Assembly: GCF_034274695.1 (NCBI RefSeq)
Contig: NZ_CP128362.1
Span: 1,240,001-1,304,000, forward strand
Origin: Chitinophaga sp. LS1
GTDB taxonomy: Bacteria > Bacteroidota > Bacteroidia > Chitinophagales > Chitinophagaceae
Reading direction: 5' to 3'
DNA length: 64,000 bases
Below, in pieces: positions 46,822 through 58,949 of this stretch. The position numbers were made by a program, and so were the translations under genes. Numbering within the stretch: the first letter of the stretch is position 1; every line of letters starts with the position of its first letter. Below the pieces are notes generated by a model that ran no database searches, was not told where the DNA came from, and worked only from the letters and a program-made list of their open reading frames with translations.

Positions 46822-47437
46822 ATGAAACCTGATAAGCCATATAAATGATCTTATTCCACTGCCTCCACAAAGAACGATGATAGAAACCCTGCCTATATTA
46901 AGGCAATTGGTTAATTCGTCAGTGGTTTTAGCTGAATTAAAAGGGTTGGTAAATATTTACCCAACCCCAATATTTTGCTCTATGCAGTTATATTAAAAGA
47001 AGCAAGTGTTAGTTCAGAGATTGAAAATGTTATTACCACTCAGGATAAGCTTTATCAGGCATTATCTGCTGATGCATCCTTAATTGATCCGGCAACGAAG
47101 GAGTTGTCTCGCTATCGGGAAGAAGTTTTATATGGATTCAATTTTATCAGGCAGAAAGGATTTTTAAACACCAACTCAATTGTCAGTATTCAACAAAAGC
47201 TGGAAGAGAATAATGCAGGTATACGAAAATTACCAGGAACAGCATTGCGTAATGGAGCTATAGGAGAAGTTATTTACACTTCCCCTGATGACTATGATAC
47301 CATCCTTAATCTGATGAAAAACCTGGAAGAATATTTAAATGATAAAGATGATCTTTCTCCCCTTATTAAACTGGCAGTGCAACATTATCAGTTTGAAAGT
47401 ATTCATCCCTTCTATAATGGTAATGGTCGTACCGGAA
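46822..47437 (+). pseudogene. Fic-family gene with two frameshifts and lost C-terminus
   Basis: ATG 46822 opens MKPDKPY, then a +1 shift (extra A) leads to NDLIPLPPQ...MIETLPILRQLVNS, and a compensating -1 shift near 46960 restores the frame for NILLYAVILKEAS onward. The Fic core HPFYNGNGRTGR is intact near 47403-47437, but the sequence then switches abruptly to an IS256-type transposase tail. The open frame 46975-47631 (218 codons) is therefore a chimera. A shorter duplicate lies at 28170. Confidence 0.8.
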
Positions 47438-47640
47438 GACCAAAGCGAGATCGATTTTACCAAACGACCAAGGCTGTAGAAAAGGTGGTATATTTAAGTC
47501 TAATGCAGGCACAAAAAAAATGGACCATGCCCCAAAGGGAATGCCCCAATATGTTATTACAATTTATTAATAGTTTTGGTCAAGAGCGATGCAACCTCTT
47601 CAAATCTAAGAACGATAGTTTACACAGTTAACTTAACACT
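47438..47640 (+). mobile_element. IS256-family transposase C-terminal remnant
   Basis: VEKVVYLSLMQAQKKWTMP and the following LLQFINSFGQERCNL are an IS256-type C-terminus. About 200 bases are shared with 51830-52030. It is fused to the truncated Fic gene and ends just before the immunity gene at 47652. Confidence 0.75.
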
Positions 47641-47651
47641 CTCACTTTATT

Positions 47652-48065
47652 CTAATCTTTTGTAAACTGATTAGGTGAAGTAACATATAAACCCACTAAG
47701 TTCTTACAATAAAAAAGATCCCATATCACCTTTTTACCTTCAAGTTCTATTAATACCCCTCCTATACTAATTCCACCTATATGCAATTTCCCACTTATTC
47801 TCGATACATCTAAATGTGAAATTAGTTCCAAATCATAATATCTCCTCTTCCGAATAGGTATTCCTACGTTTGAATTATTTTTTTTTGAGGCAATTTTGAA
47901 AAGTTTTTCATCTCTTTTAGCATATATAATATACACTGATTCTACAGAATCGATACGTTGTATTTTATACCTATATACAGGATTGTGGATGGTGTCAAAT
48001 AGCGATTGGGAATGCACTTTGATTGAAAAAAGTAATATAAATAAAATTCCTAGGTATATTTTCAT
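47652..48065 (-). CDS. Putative secreted immunity protein
   Basis: 137 residues with signal peptide MKIYLGILFILLFSIKVHSQ. It starts 6 bases after the stop of the toxin tip at 48072, the usual tip-immunity arrangement. The mature part is small and mixed beta (RISGKLHIGGISIGGVLIEL); family not recognised. As at 38393 and 40368, the putative immunity protein carries an export signal, which suggests the cognate tip works in the cell envelope. Confidence 0.65.
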   Translation of the reverse strand: MKIYLGILFILLFSIKVHSQSLFDTIHNPVYRYKIQRIDSVESVYIIYAKRDEKLFKIASKKNNSNVGIPIRKRRYYDLELISHLDVSRISGKLHIGGISIGGVLIELEGKKVIWDLFYCKNLVGLYVTSPNQFTKD

Positions 48066-48071
48066 ATTTTT

Positions 48072-48473
48072 TTATTGATGATATTGGATATAAATGATGT
48101 TATCAGCCTTACCCTTCATTCTGTTATAATAAATAGTTTTTCCTCCATGAACTGGTCCTTCAACATCATTACCATTCGCATCTTGGAAGCCATTGTATTG
48201 TATGCCCGCTTCTTCTGCCGCAGCTTGGTGTGCCTGTTCATAGATACTATTAGGAGTACCTGCTGCTCCGGAGCCCTCCCCTCTTTGTAAAGATAATTTA
48301 CCTGCCTCGAAGGACTCTGTCACTTCATCGAGCATGTCTTGTCCTGGTTTTCCATAGTAATTACTTTCACTACTGAGTTGAATAGGATTTACTTGCTGTA
48401 AGGATGTAGCAATATTATGATCTCCTGCACGGACAATATTTGTTCCAATATAGGCGCCACCAACTACTGCCAT
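48072..48473 (-). CDS. Orphan toxin tip with DEVTESFEAG motif
   Basis: 133 residues, starting abruptly (MAVVGGAYIGTNIVRAGDHN) with no leader or RHS core. LDEVTESFEAGKLSL followed by SIYEQAHQAAAEEAG fits the zincin-like RHS toxin pattern also seen at 40720, except that the first position of the motif is Asp here instead of His. If that His is a metal ligand, this copy would be inactive. It is upstream of a secreted immunity candidate. A hairpin at 48508-48535 lies just 5' of it. Confidence 0.6.
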   Translation of the reverse strand: MAVVGGAYIGTNIVRAGDHNIATSLQQVNPIQLSSESNYYGKPGQDMLDEVTESFEAGKLSLQRGEGSGAAGTPNSIYEQAHQAAAEEAGIQYNGFQDANGNDVEGPVHGGKTIYYNRMKGKADNIIYIQYHQ

Positions 48474-51395: not shown

Positions 51396-51763
51396 TCAAT
51401 TTGATATTTATAATTAATTTATCCAGAATTTTAAAACTAGGGTAATTTTCACCTTCGTTTATAGAACGGGGGGGCGGAAGATCAGAATATTTGCGCTCAT
51501 TATCTGATTATGGGCAAATATTATCAACGACCCTTAACAAAAAATTTTATAATTCAACCATTTCATATACTGGTCGGTCGTAATTACCTCCGGCTAAAGA
51601 TACAATGGTATTTCCATCCTTAAAACCTCCCATTTCTGCTTTTCACTTTCTGTAACCAATTTTAGATTTTTAGAGATACCTGGTTCAAAAACCAAATCCA
51701 GCCATTACTGCGAGGTGGCAGCTTCATCATCCGCTTTGCGGATGATTTGGGTTCCCTGAAGGC
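51396..51763. other. Intergenic with a short coding remnant
   Basis: On the minus strand near 51550-51640 a frame reads MGGFKDGNTIVSLAGGNYDR...EMVEL and stops; it may be the tail of a lost gene. Otherwise nothing is visible. Confidence 0.3.
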
Positions 51764-51993
51764 ATCAGAAAGATCATATATACAACTATCCTGATTAAAA
51801 ATGTCAACTGGGGTATTCGGAAGTATACCAAAGCGAGATCCATTTTACCAAACGACCAGGCTGTAGAAAAAGTGGTGTATTTAAGTCTGATGCAGGCACA
51901 AAAAAATGGGCCATGCCCCAAATAGAATAGCCCAATATGTTATTACAATTTATTAACAGTTTTGGTCAGGAAAGATGCAATCTTCAAATCTAA
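51764..51993 (+). mobile_element. IS256-family transposase C-terminal remnant
   Basis: IRKIIYTTILIKNVNWGIRK, YTKARSILPNDQAVEK and VVYLSLMQAQKKWAMP form the characteristic end of an IS256-type transposase; a stop interrupts it after MPQIE. It shares about 200 bases with 47438-47640, and both copies end just downstream of an RHS immunity gene. Confidence 0.75.
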
Positions 51994-52064
51994 GAACGAT
52001 AGTTTACACAGTTAATTTAACACTCTCTAATGGGACACCTTCTACTTTACGAAATCTTATTCTA

Positions 52065-52469
52065 TTACTGTTGTGCCATAAAAAACATAACACTTGTCAT
52101 TGAAGAAAAGGCATTCCCTTTTTCCAAATCAAGTAGATATTTATTGTTTTCCATGTCTGTCAGTATAAACTGACTTCTACGGGCTTCAGGGCTATCCCAG
52201 CAAAAATGCCCGTCATCCAAATCTGCAACCATTATCTCATGGCCTTCTCCATTCCGGGCAAACCTGATTCTCCTCTTGGTAATTAATACCCAGTTATCTT
52301 CATCTTTTTTGTAAATAACCAGGCCTTTTTCATCCTCAGGAAGTCCTTTTAGCTGTAACGTATAGTTGCTTTCATTTTCTTCCGTTATTATTTTTGTCAA
52401 CTCACCTTCGCCACCATTATTATTAAATTTTTTTAAAATAAGGTGAGGTCTTTGTTCTGTTCTTTTCAT
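52065..52469 (-). CDS. Putative immunity protein of the RHS toxin, displaced by an IS
   Basis: 134 residues, no signal peptide, mixed alpha/beta (LILKKFNNNGGEGELTKI...GLVIYKKDEDNWVLITKRR). Its ATG (52467-52469) overlaps the ATT/AAT target duplication of the adjacent IS. Removing the IS puts this ATG 9 bases after the stop of the RHS gene, the expected tip-immunity spacing. The IS now separates it from the RHS promoter. A cytoplasmic immunity protein fits a tip acting in the cytoplasm. Function is inferred from position. Confidence 0.6.
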   Translation of the reverse strand: MKRTEQRPHLILKKFNNNGGEGELTKIITEENESNYTLQLKGLPEDEKGLVIYKKDEDNWVLITKRRIRFARNGEGHEIMVADLDDGHFCWDSPEARRSQFILTDMENNKYLLDLEKGNAFSSMTSVMFFMAQQ

Positions 52470-52470
52470 T

Positions 52471-53379
52471 GAAGTTGTTTACACTTTTTGAAGGAAAAAA
52501 GGAAGTCCCAGGAATTAAGGATTTTTGTTTTAGCAAATAAAAACGAATAATTCTGGGACTCATAGACGAAGATAAGGTACGAGATTGGATTTTACCACAT
52601 TTAAGCAAAGGCAAAAGAGGCTTTAAGGCCAGGATAGATTTAGTAAAAGTGGTTCAGTTGATTTTAAAGCGAATGAAAACAGGCTGCCAGTGGCGAGAGT
52701 TGAGTATTTGCGAATATTTTGATAAAGGGGCGACCTCGTGGCAAAATATTCACAGGTATTTTTTAAAATGGAGTAAAGACGGTTCATTCAAGAGGGCTTG
52801 GATCAATCTTTTATCTTGTAATAAGAAACTGCTGGATCTGTCAAGCGCCCAGTTAGATGGTAGCCATACACCAGTCAAACGTGGTGGCCAGGCGGTAGGT
52901 TATCAAGGCAGAAAAGCTTCAAAGACCAGTAATAGTTTGTTCTTATGTGACAACAGAGGTCAGATGCTGACGGTATCAACAGCGCAAAGTGGAGAGCATA
53001 ATGACTTATACGATATAGTGAAGCTCTTTAAAGAAATGATCGGGGTTCTGGAACAATCCGATATCAATTGCAATGGAATATTTGTAAATGCCGATCCTGG
53101 ATTTGACAGCGAAGATTTAAAACAAGTATGCATTGACTACGAGATTGAATTAAATGTAAAACCCAACTTGCGAAATCAAAAGAAGCAAAGTGATGAATAC
53201 CGATATTTTGATGATCAACTTTACAAAAGACGAACAAAAATTGAACATGCCAATGCCTGGATGGATGCTTTTAAAGCATTGCTTGTCAGATATGAAAAAA
53301 TTGTTGAAACATGGATGGCATTGCAATGGCTGGCTCTTATAACCCTTTTTTGTAGAAAATTAAAAGTATAAACAACTTC
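52471..53379 (+). mobile_element. IS5-family insertion sequence (909 bp)
   Basis: Terminal inverted repeats GAAGTTGTTTA(C/T)ACTTTT (17 of 18 matching) at 52471 and ending at 53379, flanked by ATT on both sides (52468-52470, 53380-53382). One transposase gene fills it. It is inserted between the RHS gene and its putative immunity gene. Confidence 0.85.
52649..53371 (+). CDS. IS5-family DDE transposase
   Basis: 240 residues from GTG 52649. The DDE pattern is visible: DGSHTPVKRGG, VNADPGFDSEDL and KRRTKIEHANAWMD. Protein-like reading continues upstream in the same frame to about 52535 (LGLIDEDKVRDWILPHLSKG), so the true N-terminus is probably longer, from a non-ATG start. Otherwise intact. It transcribes opposite to the RHS locus. 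Confidence 0.85.
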   Translation: MVQLILKRMKTGCQWRELSICEYFDKGATSWQNIHRYFLKWSKDGSFKRAWINLLSCNKKLLDLSSAQLDGSHTPVKRGGQAVGYQGRKASKTSNSLFLCDNRGQMLTVSTAQSGEHNDLYDIVKLFKEMIGVLEQSDINCNGIFVNADPGFDSEDLKQVCIDYEIELNVKPNLRNQKKQSDEYRYFDDQLYKRRTKIEHANAWMDAFKALLVRYEKIVETWMALQWLALITLFCRKLKV

Positions 53380-53390
53380 ATTAAATAAAG

Positions 53391-56300
53391 TTAATAAATT
53401 AAAATCTTTGTCATCTTAATTCCTTCAGGCACAGCTTCCTGGATTACTCCAAATTTTGCCCACTTGGCCGCCATTTGCTCGCTATACTTAAATGCTTCGG
53501 CGTATACAGAATAACCATATATTTCTAGCCTTGATGCGTGAGCAGCTCTCGCTTCCTGTTCCAGAAATTCCATAACCCGTCTCAAGCCACCAAGCTTTTC
53601 CCTTGCATTTCGGGGAAGCTCTATGGAAAAAATATGCCTTACAAAAGCACCATCTTTCATTCCTTTTACACCCCAAATTTTAGCATTTCCAACCATTTCA
53701 ACCATTCCCTTATTTTCCATGCGTATTCCTATACCAAACATAACTTCTTCCATTTTGAGACCTCTCCTTGCAGCTTGAGTTGCAGCAGCAAAATTTTCTG
53801 TTTGCCTGAACGATCTGAGCATTTCTGCTTCATGAGATACTGCGCCAGCAGCTTTACCTGTTCTACCTAAAAAACCAGATGCGGCCAGATAACCAGCACC
53901 CTGTACTAATTTATGAGTACCAAACTCCCATGTGAAAGCATCTGCTGCGCTAGCTATTGTCGAGAAGCTTTGACCTTCAGGTGTCTCAAACATCTTCTGC
54001 TGACACTCTTTGGCCCAAGCCTCCTGGCGTCCTATTTCCTTACAACCAAAACAAGCATCTGGCAATACAATTGCTGCATGCTGATGATCAAGATCCTCTG
54101 TTATGGCGCCCGGTATTACTGGCACTTTAACTGGCTGACTAATCTTCAGCGGTTGCAACATGTTGATCTGAGGAATTCCTTCATGACGAGCCACCACTTG
54201 CACCACCAATTGCTCATATCCCTCAGTTACAAAGTGTACGTTACTATAATCCGATGTATAAGAGATAGAATTGACAGACGCTTTCTTTGCAGAGACTTCA
54301 ACCGGATTTAACCAGCTCCCCCCTTTCAGACTAGCAATGCTTTGTTCATCCAGCGTATTCATCAACATCTTCAACCACCATGGTGGATCATCTCCGTGTG
54401 TATCATCACCCATTGGATCACTAAGATTCACCGGATTATCCATCATACCATTATACCCTGACATTGCGGCATACTTGGCGGCTACCGGATCAATCTGTAA
54501 CCAGCGGCCCAACTGAGGGTCAAAAGTCCGATAAAAGGCATCATAAAGATCAAGCTCAAAATCTGTTATTTGTTCGATTCCGTTATACAGGAAATTATGC
54601 TGCATCCTGCCCAGCGCTTTGCTGCTCAGGCCTGTAATCTGCATACCGTAAGGATAGTATGCTTCCTCCTGTAATAAAGGACCTGTTTTATGTTGAATAA
54701 CCAGATCATCGAAATAAACATCTGTATTGCTTTCATTGCTGATATATACATATAGATACCCGTTTTTACTGGCAGTAATCTGCCCGGTCAGGGCCGCCAC
54801 TGCTCCAGGAGTACTAACTCTGACAGTATTACCACTTACCAGCTGGAAATTGTCATCAAACAGCACATAATTAAGATATGCTTTAGGAGTTGTGGAAGGA
54901 AGATTTGAACTTTGTTCATTGCTGATAAAGTTGGTAAAATCATCTTTATTTAGCAACAAGCCGTTAGCACCCTGGAGGATATTTCCCTTTCCATTATTTA
55001 CAACACTGGTTGGCCCAAGCAGTACATTTATCAGTTGGCTTACTACATCAGAAGCAACACTATTGGAGGTATTATTATCCGTTGAATTTGTCGCATAATA
55101 AGACATGACCCCCATATTAACCTGATCTCCCGCCATTACGCGTAACACCTTACCAGTCCCAATTCTGCGCTCAGGATCGGCATAATTCAGTTTTACAAAT
55201 TTACGGTTAGTGGTGCCGTTATAGTCATAAAATTTGTTACCCTGCGGAATATCATCTACATGCTCAGGGAAACTGAACAATTCACGCTCAGGTAATAATG
55301 GTGCCGGAGAAGGATTGTCTTCATGTGTAGCTTTATAACCATAGGTATTAGCCTCTTCTGTAAGTACCGTACGTGTATTGCCCAAATAATCCTTCAAGAA
55401 ATAATCAAATACGAATGCATTATCCGTGTTTTTCCTGACGCGACCTCCATCAAACACTACAAATTGTAGTACGTTGTCTTTGTACATCGCTCCACTCAGC
55501 ATAGTGTAAGTATGAGTTTCAGTACCATCACTTACCACTCGTTTGAGAAGATTGCCTGATACATCTCTTGTAAAGGTGATATATTTATTTGCATCACTGG
55601 TCAGACTTATTCTATCTGGCTTGCCCAGCAGATAATCATAACTGATGGTAATACCTCTATTCTTATCTCCGATTAGGTTCCCATTATCATCATAGGTGTA
55701 ATCATCAGCGGTAGTTCTGCCACTGTAATTCTTAAAATCGCCCTGTTGCTTATCACCCTGTGAATCGGTTACCCTTTTTAGTTGATTACTGTTAGTATTA
55801 TACTCATAAGTAAGATCATCCACAGTTGTCTTGACTTTTCCCGCAAGAACACCTTCCTCCTTCATTTTGATCAGATTACCTGCTTCGTCATATTGAGAGG
55901 ACATGGTATAATCTTCTTCACTATTCAGCCAGTTATCATTTGTATTCTGCGAGTAATCAGCTTTAGTGAGGCGGCTATGACTGTCATAGGTATAACCATA
56001 TGCGTTTGCTGCATCGGGACTTCCCTTTCTGCGCCAGGTAACTCCGGAGATGCTGCCATCTTTAGGCTTATTGGTAAACCCATTCTCATATGCCAGCTCC
56101 ATGCCAAGGTAATTATTGCCCGATTTACTCTTCGAATAATCAGCATTCACTCCAATGAGACGACCCTTCAGATCATAGGTATAGTTCTGTGTCTCAATAC
56201 CATTGCCTATTACAGTGGTTTTTATTTTATTCTGATTATCATAAGTGTTCTGTGTTAACATTTTTTCTGTACCCGGAGCGCCACTGCCAATAGCGTAATA

Positions 56301-58949
56301 AGTCTGCAATAATTTCCCTGATTCATCATATTCCATCCGCTTCTGAGTGATCAACAATGGATCAGTTGTACTCTGAGGATTACTAATGCGGGAATAAGAA
56401 GATAATGGCGTTCCATTATTGTCATAAAGTAATGTCGTTATATTAGTACCACCCTGAATGTTAGTGGATGCCATCTGTATGATCTCCCCTTTCTCACTAT
56501 AATATAAAGTGTGCTTCAGCCATTGATTCGTGGCAGGTACAAGCAGCTTATATCCTGTCATTTTACCAATAGTATTTTTAGAGGGCTCACTGACAGTTAC
56601 AGGATAAAGATTGCTACCTGCATTCAGTGTATAGTTTTTATCGAATGCATGCGCTTCCTGCCATTTGTAATTATCATAGTAGTATACCAACAAAGGTTTA
56701 GCTCCACTGATATTGGGCACGGGATTGCTTATTGTGAAATTGTCCGTTACATTTACCGCATTTGGATCTATTGACACAGCCAATTCTCCACCTGAAGTAC
56801 TTTCGTAACCTGGTAAAAAAGTCACACTTCCAGATGCTACATAGGTTGAAGTGTTATCGTTGTGGTCGATATATATATCTTTATCAGCAAGTGTCGTTAC
56901 TGAGACAATACTGCTACCACTTACTAGATCCATTTGCGCCTGAAGACCTTCACGGGTAGCAGTTGCATTCTGATACAATGACATCACCCGTATCCTGTCC
57001 TGACTATCATACGTGTACAGTATCCATTCACCCTGATTACGACTATTCAGCGTTTGGTCTTGTACTAATACTAATCTGTCATTTACATCATATACGTAAT
57101 TAGATGTTCCTTTTCGTCCTGCCCCTTCCTCCGAAACTAATCTTCCTTTGGCATCATAATAGAACTTATATCCCAGCTGCTTCAGTAGGTTTTTATTATC
57201 AGTACTAACAGAGAAGTCCCAGGTTGCATTATCCCACCAGTTCTTAGTTGCAAGTGGAGGAATAATATAACGCAAATTCCCCATATCATCATAGACATAG
57301 TAAGTGCGCAGTTCATTTTTGTAATTACCATCTGCCCCCTCTCTGGAAGACATCAGCATTCTGCCATACAGATCGTAGAATTGTGTACTATAAATACCAT
57401 TTTCATCTGTGGATTTTAGGACCAAAAGGTTTCCATCAGCATATTCTGCGACACTTACAGGAACATCTGTTTCTGCATCACCAATTTTCCATATTCTTAC
57501 ATGTTCATTACCTGTATTTTTAGTGATTTGGGAACCTGAGCTGACGTTTGTACCTATTTGATCTTTTCCGGGCAATTGTATTTTAAAATAACGGGATGCC
57601 GGAGATGCTTCATCCAGGTACTGACTATAAAAATAACTATCCTTATTTTGCGTCAATGCATTATAATAGGCTGGCTGTGCTGTCTTTACATCAGTTCTGA
57701 ATGTACCCTGACTGGTACTGGTTGTAGCAGCCAGATAAGGGAGATGTCTTACCGTCTGACGCCCAAACTGGTCATATTGAGAAACCTGTACAAGGTCAGT
57801 ATTGTTATTACCTACCTTTTGTAAAACTGATTCCAATACTCTGCTAAGACCATCAGAATAAGCTACATTCACACGTACATCTCTTTTACTGCTTAGTGAA
57901 GTCAACTGAGAAGCACTCGTTACCCCCGGTTTAAGTACAGTAAATCCTTTAACACTATTAAGCTTCGTTGCATTGACAGCACTATAATCGGGAGGAGTGA
58001 GCTGTGTTTGAGTACCTGCGCTGGAAGTGGTAACAGGAATATTTGGCGCAACAGCAGCTTTCACAAACACCTGTACTGTATTGCTGCTGCTGACTTGTGA
58101 ACCTGAAGTTACTTTCTTTCTAAAATATGTAGTAGCGGAGAGTGCTGGTGGCTGATAGCCCGCAGCTGTAGCTCCGGAAATAGCCATCCAGGTCATCTCA
58201 TCAGGGGATGACTCCCATTGATATGTATAACTATCGGTACCTCCGGCTGGGCTAATTGTTGTTGTAAAAGCAGCAGGAGCAGCACCGGCCGTTACAGTCT
58301 GGGAACTATTGATTGTACCGGCAGTCAGTCTTTTACTGATATCTATAGTCAATACATTTGAATAAGCTTCATTATATTGATCACTTACTTTTCTGCGGAT
58401 ATGATATTTCTGACTAATAATGGAACTCCCCTTACAATCCAATCCTGTAGAACCATAAATGGGCGTCCAATTAGTACCATCAGCAGATTCTTCCCATTGA
58501 TAGGAATAGGCAACACCAAGTGCTGCACCTTTTCCTCCTGTGGCTGAAGAGGCATTTACAAAACCTGTATAAGAAATAATATCGTCCTTCACAACAGAAG
58601 TGATATTACCTGTGATAGTACCACCATTGATTGGGCTATAAACCGGCGCATTAAAGCACACGTCCATATCCATCGCACTCACAAAATATACGGCACTCAC
58701 ATAACCGCTACCAGCAATATTCCATTGAACTTTTACTGAGGCATTGGTGGAAGAACCCACAATTGTCCCGCCGGAAGACACTGACCAGTGAACATTAGAA
58801 ACATTTAAATCTGTAATATTATAAGTTTCGGTTGTTCCTACAGGTACGGGACTTCTATCGGTACATTGGGCCAATAAATGGTTACTACAAAACAGCAGTA
58901 CTAGCAACACCATTAATGGACGTCGAAAAATATAGGGAATTTTTTTCAT
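53391..58949 (-). CDS. RHS-repeat polymorphic toxin with variable C-terminal tip
   Basis: 1852 residues. Signal peptide PLMVLLVLLFCSNHLLAQ; two Ig/PKD-like domains up to about residue 300; a DUF6443-like region (SVKGFTVLKPG, VAYSDGLSRVLESVLQ); YD repeats from about 530 on (YVYDDMGNLRYIIPP, YTYDSHSRLTKADYSQ, YTYDDNGNLIGDKN); the RHS-associated core ends in YDAFYRTFDPQLGRWLQIDP and NPVNLSDPMGDD at about 1516. The 336-residue tip follows. Its last 100 residues (RRVMEFLEQEARAAHASRLEIYGY...KWAKFGVIQEA) recall an acetyltransferase-like (GNAT) C-terminal fold, which is tentative. It is co-transcribed with the SpvB-like gene 23 bases upstream; its putative immunity gene is cut off by an IS. Confidence 0.88.
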   Translation of the reverse strand: MKKIPYIFRRPLMVLLVLLFCSNHLLAQCTDRSPVPVGTTETYNITDLNVSNVHWSVSSGGTIVGSSTNASVKVQWNIAGSGYVSAVYFVSAMDMDVCFNAPVYSPINGGTITGNITSVVKDDIISYTGFVNASSATGGKGAALGVAYSYQWEESADGTNWTPIYGSTGLDCKGSSIISQKYHIRRKVSDQYNEAYSNVLTIDISKRLTAGTINSSQTVTAGAAPAAFTTTISPAGGTDSYTYQWESSPDEMTWMAISGATAAGYQPPALSATTYFRKKVTSGSQVSSSNTVQVFVKAAVAPNIPVTTSSAGTQTQLTPPDYSAVNATKLNSVKGFTVLKPGVTSASQLTSLSSKRDVRVNVAYSDGLSRVLESVLQKVGNNNTDLVQVSQYDQFGRQTVRHLPYLAATTSTSQGTFRTDVKTAQPAYYNALTQNKDSYFYSQYLDEASPASRYFKIQLPGKDQIGTNVSSGSQITKNTGNEHVRIWKIGDAETDVPVSVAEYADGNLLVLKSTDENGIYSTQFYDLYGRMLMSSREGADGNYKNELRTYYVYDDMGNLRYIIPPLATKNWWDNATWDFSVSTDNKNLLKQLGYKFYYDAKGRLVSEEGAGRKGTSNYVYDVNDRLVLVQDQTLNSRNQGEWILYTYDSQDRIRVMSLYQNATATREGLQAQMDLVSGSSIVSVTTLADKDIYIDHNDNTSTYVASGSVTFLPGYESTSGGELAVSIDPNAVNVTDNFTISNPVPNISGAKPLLVYYYDNYKWQEAHAFDKNYTLNAGSNLYPVTVSEPSKNTIGKMTGYKLLVPATNQWLKHTLYYSEKGEIIQMASTNIQGGTNITTLLYDNNGTPLSSYSRISNPQSTTDPLLITQKRMEYDESGKLLQTYYAIGSGAPGTEKMLTQNTYDNQNKIKTTVIGNGIETQNYTYDLKGRLIGVNADYSKSKSGNNYLGMELAYENGFTNKPKDGSISGVTWRRKGSPDAANAYGYTYDSHSRLTKADYSQNTNDNWLNSEEDYTMSSQYDEAGNLIKMKEEGVLAGKVKTTVDDLTYEYNTNSNQLKRVTDSQGDKQQGDFKNYSGRTTADDYTYDDNGNLIGDKNRGITISYDYLLGKPDRISLTSDANKYITFTRDVSGNLLKRVVSDGTETHTYTMLSGAMYKDNVLQFVVFDGGRVRKNTDNAFVFDYFLKDYLGNTRTVLTEEANTYGYKATHEDNPSPAPLLPERELFSFPEHVDDIPQGNKFYDYNGTTNRKFVKLNYADPERRIGTGKVLRVMAGDQVNMGVMSYYATNSTDNNTSNSVASDVVSQLINVLLGPTSVVNNGKGNILQGANGLLLNKDDFTNFISNEQSSNLPSTTPKAYLNYVLFDDNFQLVSGNTVRVSTPGAVAALTGQITASKNGYLYVYISNESNTDVYFDDLVIQHKTGPLLQEEAYYPYGMQITGLSSKALGRMQHNFLYNGIEQITDFELDLYDAFYRTFDPQLGRWLQIDPVAAKYAAMSGYNGMMDNPVNLSDPMGDDTHGDDPPWWLKMLMNTLDEQSIASLKGGSWLNPVEVSAKKASVNSISYTSDYSNVHFVTEGYEQLVVQVVARHEGIPQINMLQPLKISQPVKVPVIPGAITEDLDHQHAAIVLPDACFGCKEIGRQEAWAKECQQKMFETPEGQSFSTIASAADAFTWEFGTHKLVQGAGYLAASGFLGRTGKAAGAVSHEAEMLRSFRQTENFAAATQAARRGLKMEEVMFGIGIRMENKGMVEMVGNAKIWGVKGMKDGAFVRHIFSIELPRNAREKLGGLRRVMEFLEQEARAAHASRLEIYGYSVYAEAFKYSEQMAAKWAKFGVIQEAVPEGIKMTKILIY

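Follow-up and report, generated by a model that had tools for sequence, protein, structure and literature searches.

An IS5-type insertion sequence lies between a presumed RHS toxin tip and its putative immunity gene in Chitinophaga sp. LS1

What becomes of a toxin-immunity cassette when a mobile element lands between its two genes? The question is raised by a locus of Chitinophaga sp. LS1 (genome G000, whose chromosome is one contig of 8.67 Mb) that lies in a 64,000-nucleotide (nt) stretch of contig NZ_CP128362.1 (positions 1,240,001 to 1,304,000; hereafter, the window). Read along the minus strand, window positions 52065-58949 hold the gene for an RHS protein, an insertion sequence (IS) of the IS5 type, and a 134-amino-acid (aa) open reading frame (ORF) that we regard as a putative immunity gene. 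RHS polymorphic toxins combine a C-terminal tip with an adjacent immunity gene, and polyimmunity loci occur among them (Zhang et al. 2012, PMC3482391, in the portion of that text considered here). The explanation that we favor, and in which we have good confidence, is that an IS jumped recently into the 9-nt gap of such a cassette, splitting the pair and probably reducing immunity, and that this is tolerated.

The junction can be read to the base (Table 1). After the RHS stop codon, TAA, come 8 nt, one copy of ATT (read on this strand as its complement), the 909-bp element, and a second ATT that overlaps the ATG of the 134-aa ORF. An earlier note, made from the letters of the window alone, had given coordinates that are exact, and had described a split falling precisely at the immunity ATG, with part of this codon inside the duplication, just as is seen. 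Despite the insertion, the RHS frame, the 134-aa frame, and the immunity start codon are all whole. The RHS protein carries the RHS/YD repeats and the Rhs-associated core by which polymorphic toxins of this class are recognized: Pfam models match at 78.4 bits for DUF6443 (cut-off, 27.8) and 22.5 bits for RHS_repeat (cut-off, 22), and the NCBIfam core model TIGR03696 matches at 46.9 bits (cut-off, 32.5).

The same site is empty in G111, a genome of the same species. There, contig C351 matches window positions 51746-52470 with its positions 972-1696 (97%) and window positions 53377-53805 with its positions 1691-2119 (90%), such that the junction runs uninterrupted through a single ATT. The earlier note had recommended a search for an empty site in relatives and had predicted, by excising the element on paper, a spacing of 9 bases from TAA to ATG; G111 provides exactly this arrangement in nature.

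The intervening DNA has the terminal inverted repeats (52465-52488 and 53362-53385, 88% complementary) and target-site duplication of an IS5-family element, and its transposase matches DUF4096, DDE_Tnp_4, and DDE_Tnp_1 above the Pfam cut-offs, which bears out its first description as an IS5-type element between ATT duplicates. Because the NCBIfam model transpos_IS5_3 reaches only 102.1 bits, under its cut-off of 110, we call the element IS5-type without filing it under that model. The G000 chromosome contains at least 12 full copies of the 909-bp element at 99-100% identity, four of which, including that of the window, are identical. Further full copies number at least four at 71% identity and at least seven, of a 917-bp subfamily, at 66%, along with at least six fragments (all counts are lower bounds, from 40 of 45 candidates scored). 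Matching 3-bp flanks, for which the chance probability is about 0.018, border 20 of the 23 full copies and every one of the 12 near-identical copies; the three copies without them (L013, L015, and L016) all belong to the 71% group. In a search of 79 genomes of the genus, only G000, G111, and G050 had transposase relatives at an expectation value (E) of ≤1e-40. Given its near-identical copies, their matching flanks, and this narrow distribution, the element seems to have invaded the G000 lineage recently and to be active there, and the four identical copies point to recent movement. It resembles known IS5-family elements in its DUF4096 DDE transposase, its length of about 0.9 kb, its inverted repeats, and its short duplications, but differs from them in missing the transpos_IS5_3 cut-off, in making 3-bp duplications with no fixed consensus, and in lacking, in the window copy, a usual transposase start codon.

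This last peculiarity extends beyond the window. Neither the window copy, nor its 11 near-identical relatives, nor L013 contains an ATG, GTG, or TTG between the opening stop codon and a conserved tryptophan (W) codon, and the remaining 10 of the 23 full copies carry a TTG in frame, which falls within or close to the loop of a conserved stem, whose arms (CCCA/TGGG) are kept throughout the 23. The transposase of the window group could be made from a non-AUG start or through a frameshift at the A-run near 52539-52543.

The case for a true toxin-immunity pair comes from other genomes. We sought the tip in the 79 genomes of the genus and in samples from the phylum and from the class, of 395 genomes each. 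Within the genus, eight genomes besides G000 matched, four of them in the toxin domain (G111, G004, G033, and G041) and four in the pre-toxin linker only (G013, G103, G057, and G113), the latter being excluded from the count of pairs; the phylum sample added the toxin domain of G392 and the class sample that of G706. In all six of these other tip-bearing genomes, two of which lie outside the family, an immunity homologue stands directly downstream with no IS in between, after gaps from stop to start of 9 nt (G111), 4 nt (G004, G033, and G041), or 5 nt (G392 and G706). The homologues in G392 and G706 were confirmed by BLASTP and by profile comparison (hhalign probabilities of 99.9% and 99.7%). 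Since the linkage holds in six of six genomes, the pairing of tip and 134-aa ORF, which the earlier note had proposed, is well supported, and we infer from it that the tip is toxic and that the 134-aa protein protects against it.

Tip and immunity gene differ in their distributions. Of the six genomes, four have an open tip frame: G004 (in a 1,507-aa RHS protein), G706 (2,483 aa), G033 (a 347-aa ORF with the end of a core), and G392 (a stand-alone ORF of 128 aa). In G111 and G041 the frame is broken. Different RHS bodies share the tip domain, including those of G004, whose RHS protein is about 34% identical, and of G706; exchangeable tips after the core, like the adjoining immunity gene, are characteristic of RHS polymorphic toxins. 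The immunity family has the broader distribution: homologues occur in 14 of 99 genomes, G000 included, and adjoin a tip only in G000, G004, G033, and G041 within the 9-15 kb examined. Stand-alone copies exist, and one region of G051 (contig C13, L094, 6142-8113) has four tandem paralogues, a polyimmunity locus. G000 itself holds a spare paralogue at G000:6814035, 58% identical and with an open frame.

What the two proteins might do is suggested by their predicted folds. The AlphaFold model of the immunity protein (predicted local distance difference test [pLDDT], 93.6; predicted template modeling score [pTM], 0.88) has the seven-strand barrel and C-terminal helix of the PH-like fold and matches PH domains in fold comparison, so that we are confident in this assignment at the level of the model. 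The toxin domain of the tip is modeled less firmly (pLDDT, 71; pTM, 0.64), with a fold that, going by fold comparison, is probably GNAT-like. GNAT enzymes bind acetyl-CoA with a loop of the form R/Q-x-x-G-x-G/A, and where this loop would lie, the tip alignment reads LGGL, LSGL, VSGL, or LSSL, with no common motif. As the earlier note had advised, tip and 134-aa protein were both aligned to known families, and neither found a family in Pfam, NCBIfam, or PADLOC scans: there were weak hits, such as those to ComGF, DUF4252, and PDC-M47B, those from Pfam being below their cut-offs. Sequence searches of the PDB returned nothing credible, the best matches to the immunity profile (E of 0.004) being short stretches of designed TIM barrels. 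A plasmid collection had no match to the tips of the window and G392, nor did a phage collection to the tip of G392, the only query used there. The likeness to GNAT toxins of type II toxin-antitoxin systems (AtaT and TacT; AtaT structures 6gts, 6gtq, and 6gtr) is one of fold only: unlike these, the window tip has no clear R/Q-x-x-G-x-G/A loop, is borne by an RHS protein, and has a PH-like partner, whereas the partner of AtaT and TacT is a DNA-binding antitoxin. Bacterial PH-domain proteins (3hsa and 3dcx) are about 10% identical to the window protein, here presumed to provide immunity.

From these observations, we propose the following course of events. An active IS5-type element would recently have inserted itself between the toxin and immunity genes of an RHS cassette, in their 9-nt gap, with its usual 3-bp duplication. 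The tip of this cassette would be a small toxin domain, probably of GNAT-like fold, against which the downstream PH-fold protein protects. Because the gap is only 9 nt, both genes were presumably read as one message before the insertion. Any RHS message would now cross 909 nt antisense to the transposase, untranslated, and then the stem at 52504-52560 followed by a U-rich stretch; with so much DNA intervening, loss of RHS-immunity cotranscription, which the earlier note had stated outright, is likely, and the immunity protein is probably now made at a much lower level. A simple terminator scan did not list this stem, and terminator-like sites are at chance level (2, versus 2.1 expected). That the strain tolerates the insertion would most likely reflect weak expression of the RHS gene and a tip that acts mainly on neighboring cells after export, possibly helped by the spare paralogue, a fourth way out that was absent from the options listed in the earlier note (immunity driven from the IS end, a tolerated tip, or a silent one).

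The strongest competitor to this explanation, which we rate as possible but clearly the less probable of the two, is that the tip module was dead cargo before the element arrived, with an unexpressed RHS gene and an insertion that represents neutral decay of a dispensable island. Several observations weigh in its favor. The empty-site relative itself has a broken tip: G111 lacks about 314 bp of the linker, which breaks the frame. Beyond this loss, G111 matches window positions 54116-54825 at 99%, ending near RHS residue 1373, and the rest of the RHS body is represented by a single 64-bp match among the matches listed (40 of 102 candidates scored). With its tip frame broken and its homology ending near that residue, the G111 cassette appears to be a remnant whose immunity gene has been well preserved, consistent with a module that passes from one RHS body to another. 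Moreover, G000 has a second tip fragment without an immunity gene (G000:27443), and another of its IS copies (G000:3157507) interrupts the gene that follows an RHS tip with an HExxH motif; of the core, the tip frame there retains only the end. Speaking against dead cargo, the RHS frame is open throughout its 1,852 aa, and the ratio of nonsynonymous to synonymous substitution rates (dN/dS) for the immunity gene is 0.06 between G000 and G111 (17 of 402 nt differ), which indicates that it is under strong purifying selection between these genomes; the corresponding ratio for the shared part of the tip is 0.31 (42 of 414 nt differ). Most of the history captured by these ratios probably predates the insertion, given how recent the IS looks.

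A different outcome would follow if the element brought an outward promoter that made immunity constitutive and uncoupled it from the toxin, which we consider unlikely. The left end of the IS lies 1 nt from the immunity start codon, A/T-rich IS ends can make promoters, and two sigma-70-like pairs with 9 of 12 matching positions (52690-52661 and 52744-52716, minus strand) face the ORF from within the IS. On contig C8 of G111 (L107, 1-255), which begins inside another IS copy, 12 nt separate the right end of that copy from the ATG of an immunity paralogue with 61% identity. However, the region has 8 sigma-70-like pairs against a shuffle mean of 6.9, and this consensus may not be that of the host. 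The Bacteroidota-type promoter consensus is TAnnTTTG, of which the minus strand of the IS has no exact instance; four sites with one mismatch fall in its last 260 bp, with no clear upstream element. Because such matches are at the level expected by chance, the option of driving immunity from the IS end, as raised in the earlier note, finds no real support in the sequence. A TAnnTTTG within the tip (53735-53742, minus strand), considered as an internal immunity promoter, was given no weight, as the G111 protein differs there (judged by eye).

It is less likely still that the insertion was selected or targeted, either because IS5-type elements favor RHS 3' ends or because uncoupling benefits the cells. 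We compared the positions of the 23 full IS copies with those of RHS cores in G000 (34 matches in the whole-genome scan, 26 of them over the curated cut-off), using as a null 4,000 rotations of the IS positions, which ignore islands. Counting all 34 cores, three copies lie within 1.5 kb on the 3' side (rotation mean, 0.13; reached in 2 of 4,000) and four within 2.5 kb (mean, 0.22; reached in none). With the 26 stricter cores, two copies lie within 1.5 kb (reached in 25 of 4,000) and still only two within 2.5 kb (mean, 0.18; reached in 51 of 4,000), rising to four within 5 kb (reached in 2 of 4,000), all distance cut-offs having been set after the data were seen. For three of the four close insertions (that of the window, G000:3157507, and G000:6905873), G111 provides the exact empty site; a matching duplicate is missing at the fourth, G000:537305. 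Since the cut-offs are post hoc and RHS islands, being dispensable and A/T rich, would by themselves attract insertions that survive, the simplest reading is that RHS 3' ends act as a permissive sink for IS, and we do not claim targeting. RHS 3' ends as collectors of insertion sequences are thus a hint only. As to individual sites, G000:537305 (a 71% IS, 3 nt past an RHS stop codon) was examined as a second toxin-IS-immunity split and rejected, as it has no matching duplicate and G111 is without that tip at the corresponding place. The copy L012 (G000:3157507-3158415) splits a 217-aa frame with a hydrophobic N terminus directly after the HExxH tip, a frame that is whole in G111 (contig C4, L142).

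That the 134-aa gene is a chance neighbor, as its many relatives without a tip (only 4 of 14 genomes with a homologue have one adjacent) might suggest, is highly improbable given its place immediately downstream in all six other tip-bearing genomes, two of them outside the family, and given that stand-alone and tandem copies are what orphan and polyimmunity loci would produce.

The locus shares with the RHS systems of Zhang et al. (PMC3482391, same portion) the RHS repeats, the core motif, a variable tip, a small gene starting a few nt past the stop codon, and, across genomes, orphan and tandem immunity genes, the latter exemplified by the four in G051. It differs from them in that its tip and immunity protein match no Pfam or NCBIfam family and in having an IS between the two genes. 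The terms "GNAT," "acetyltransferase," and "PH domain" have zero occurrences in the first 300,000 of the 357,715 characters of that article. Rhs loci of Escherichia coli contain H-repeats, IS-like units among displaced downstream tips, whose transposition had not been observed, according to PMC3032704 (in the portion considered here); they, too, place IS-like DNA at rhs 3' ends beside displaced tips, whereas the window element is a multicopy IS with duplications and empty sites. In the literature on GNAT toxins of Rhs or type VI secretion systems, on PH-type immunity, on IS between toxin and immunity genes, on Rhs H-repeats, and on Rhs proteins of Chitinophaga, as represented by titles and the beginnings of abstracts, neither the pair nor the split is described.

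The insertion event is in itself ordinary, and the new part would be an unnamed RHS toxin-immunity family. We see an even balance for and against such a family extending over Bacteroidota, in which a GNAT-fold tip is neutralized by a PH-fold protein, with orphan and tandem spread and, here, an IS split. If it is real, a pair with unusual folds joins the polymorphic toxins. A strain in which the operon is physically interrupted but neither gene has lost its open frame would amount to a natural uncoupling experiment, one that allows asking whether self-protection needs coupled transcription.

Table 1. Positions in the window of the RHS gene, the insertion sequence, the putative immunity gene, and their parts
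Feature	Position	Strand	Basis or remark
RHS protein, 1,852 aa	53391..58949	-	DUF6443, RHS repeat, Rhs_assc_core; N-terminal hydrophobic (signal-like) stretch, by eye
Rhs_assc_core domain, residues 1431-1514	54408..54659	-	NCBIfam; identical position in whole-genome scan
Variable C-terminal tip, 336 aa	53394..54401	-	Tip of the 1,852-aa RHS protein
Pre-toxin linker of tip	about 53751-54401	-	Parts recur in other RHS proteins; matched alone in G013, G103, G057, G113
Toxin domain of tip, about 119 aa	53394..53750	-	Alignment and structure model; GNAT-like predicted fold
Immunity gene (putative), 134 aa	52065..52469	-	ORF, PH-like predicted fold, conserved linkage
IS5-type insertion sequence, 909 bp	52471..53379	+	Inverted repeats, copies in chromosome, Pfam domains
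Transposase frame, 276 aa	52541..53371	+	No ATG, GTG, or TTG before codon 37
Stem-loop, IS left end	52504..52560		RNA fold z of -3.05 (plus strand) and -4.14 (minus strand); right arm over beginning of transposase frame
Target-site duplicate ATT, RHS side	53380..53382		Sequence
Target-site duplicate ATT, immunity side	52468..52470		Complement AAT supplies A and T of ATG
Tip-immunity cassette common to G000 and G111	51746..54831	-	In G111, no IS, and linker shorter by about 314 bp

Other features of the window lie at lower coordinates. The intergenic segment 51270-51371 is a dispersed repeat of ~100 bp, of which G111 has at least 11 partial copies among the matches listed, 77-88% identical; it has no Rfam match, the window as a whole giving none at the gathering threshold. 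On the minus strand at 47652-48473, two small ORFs 6 nt apart, of 133 aa and then 137 aa (the second with a signal-like start), resemble another orphan tip/immunity pair, with no Pfam match. Positions 46975-47631 on the plus strand encode a 218-aa Fic-domain protein with Fic_N and a listed start of TTG.

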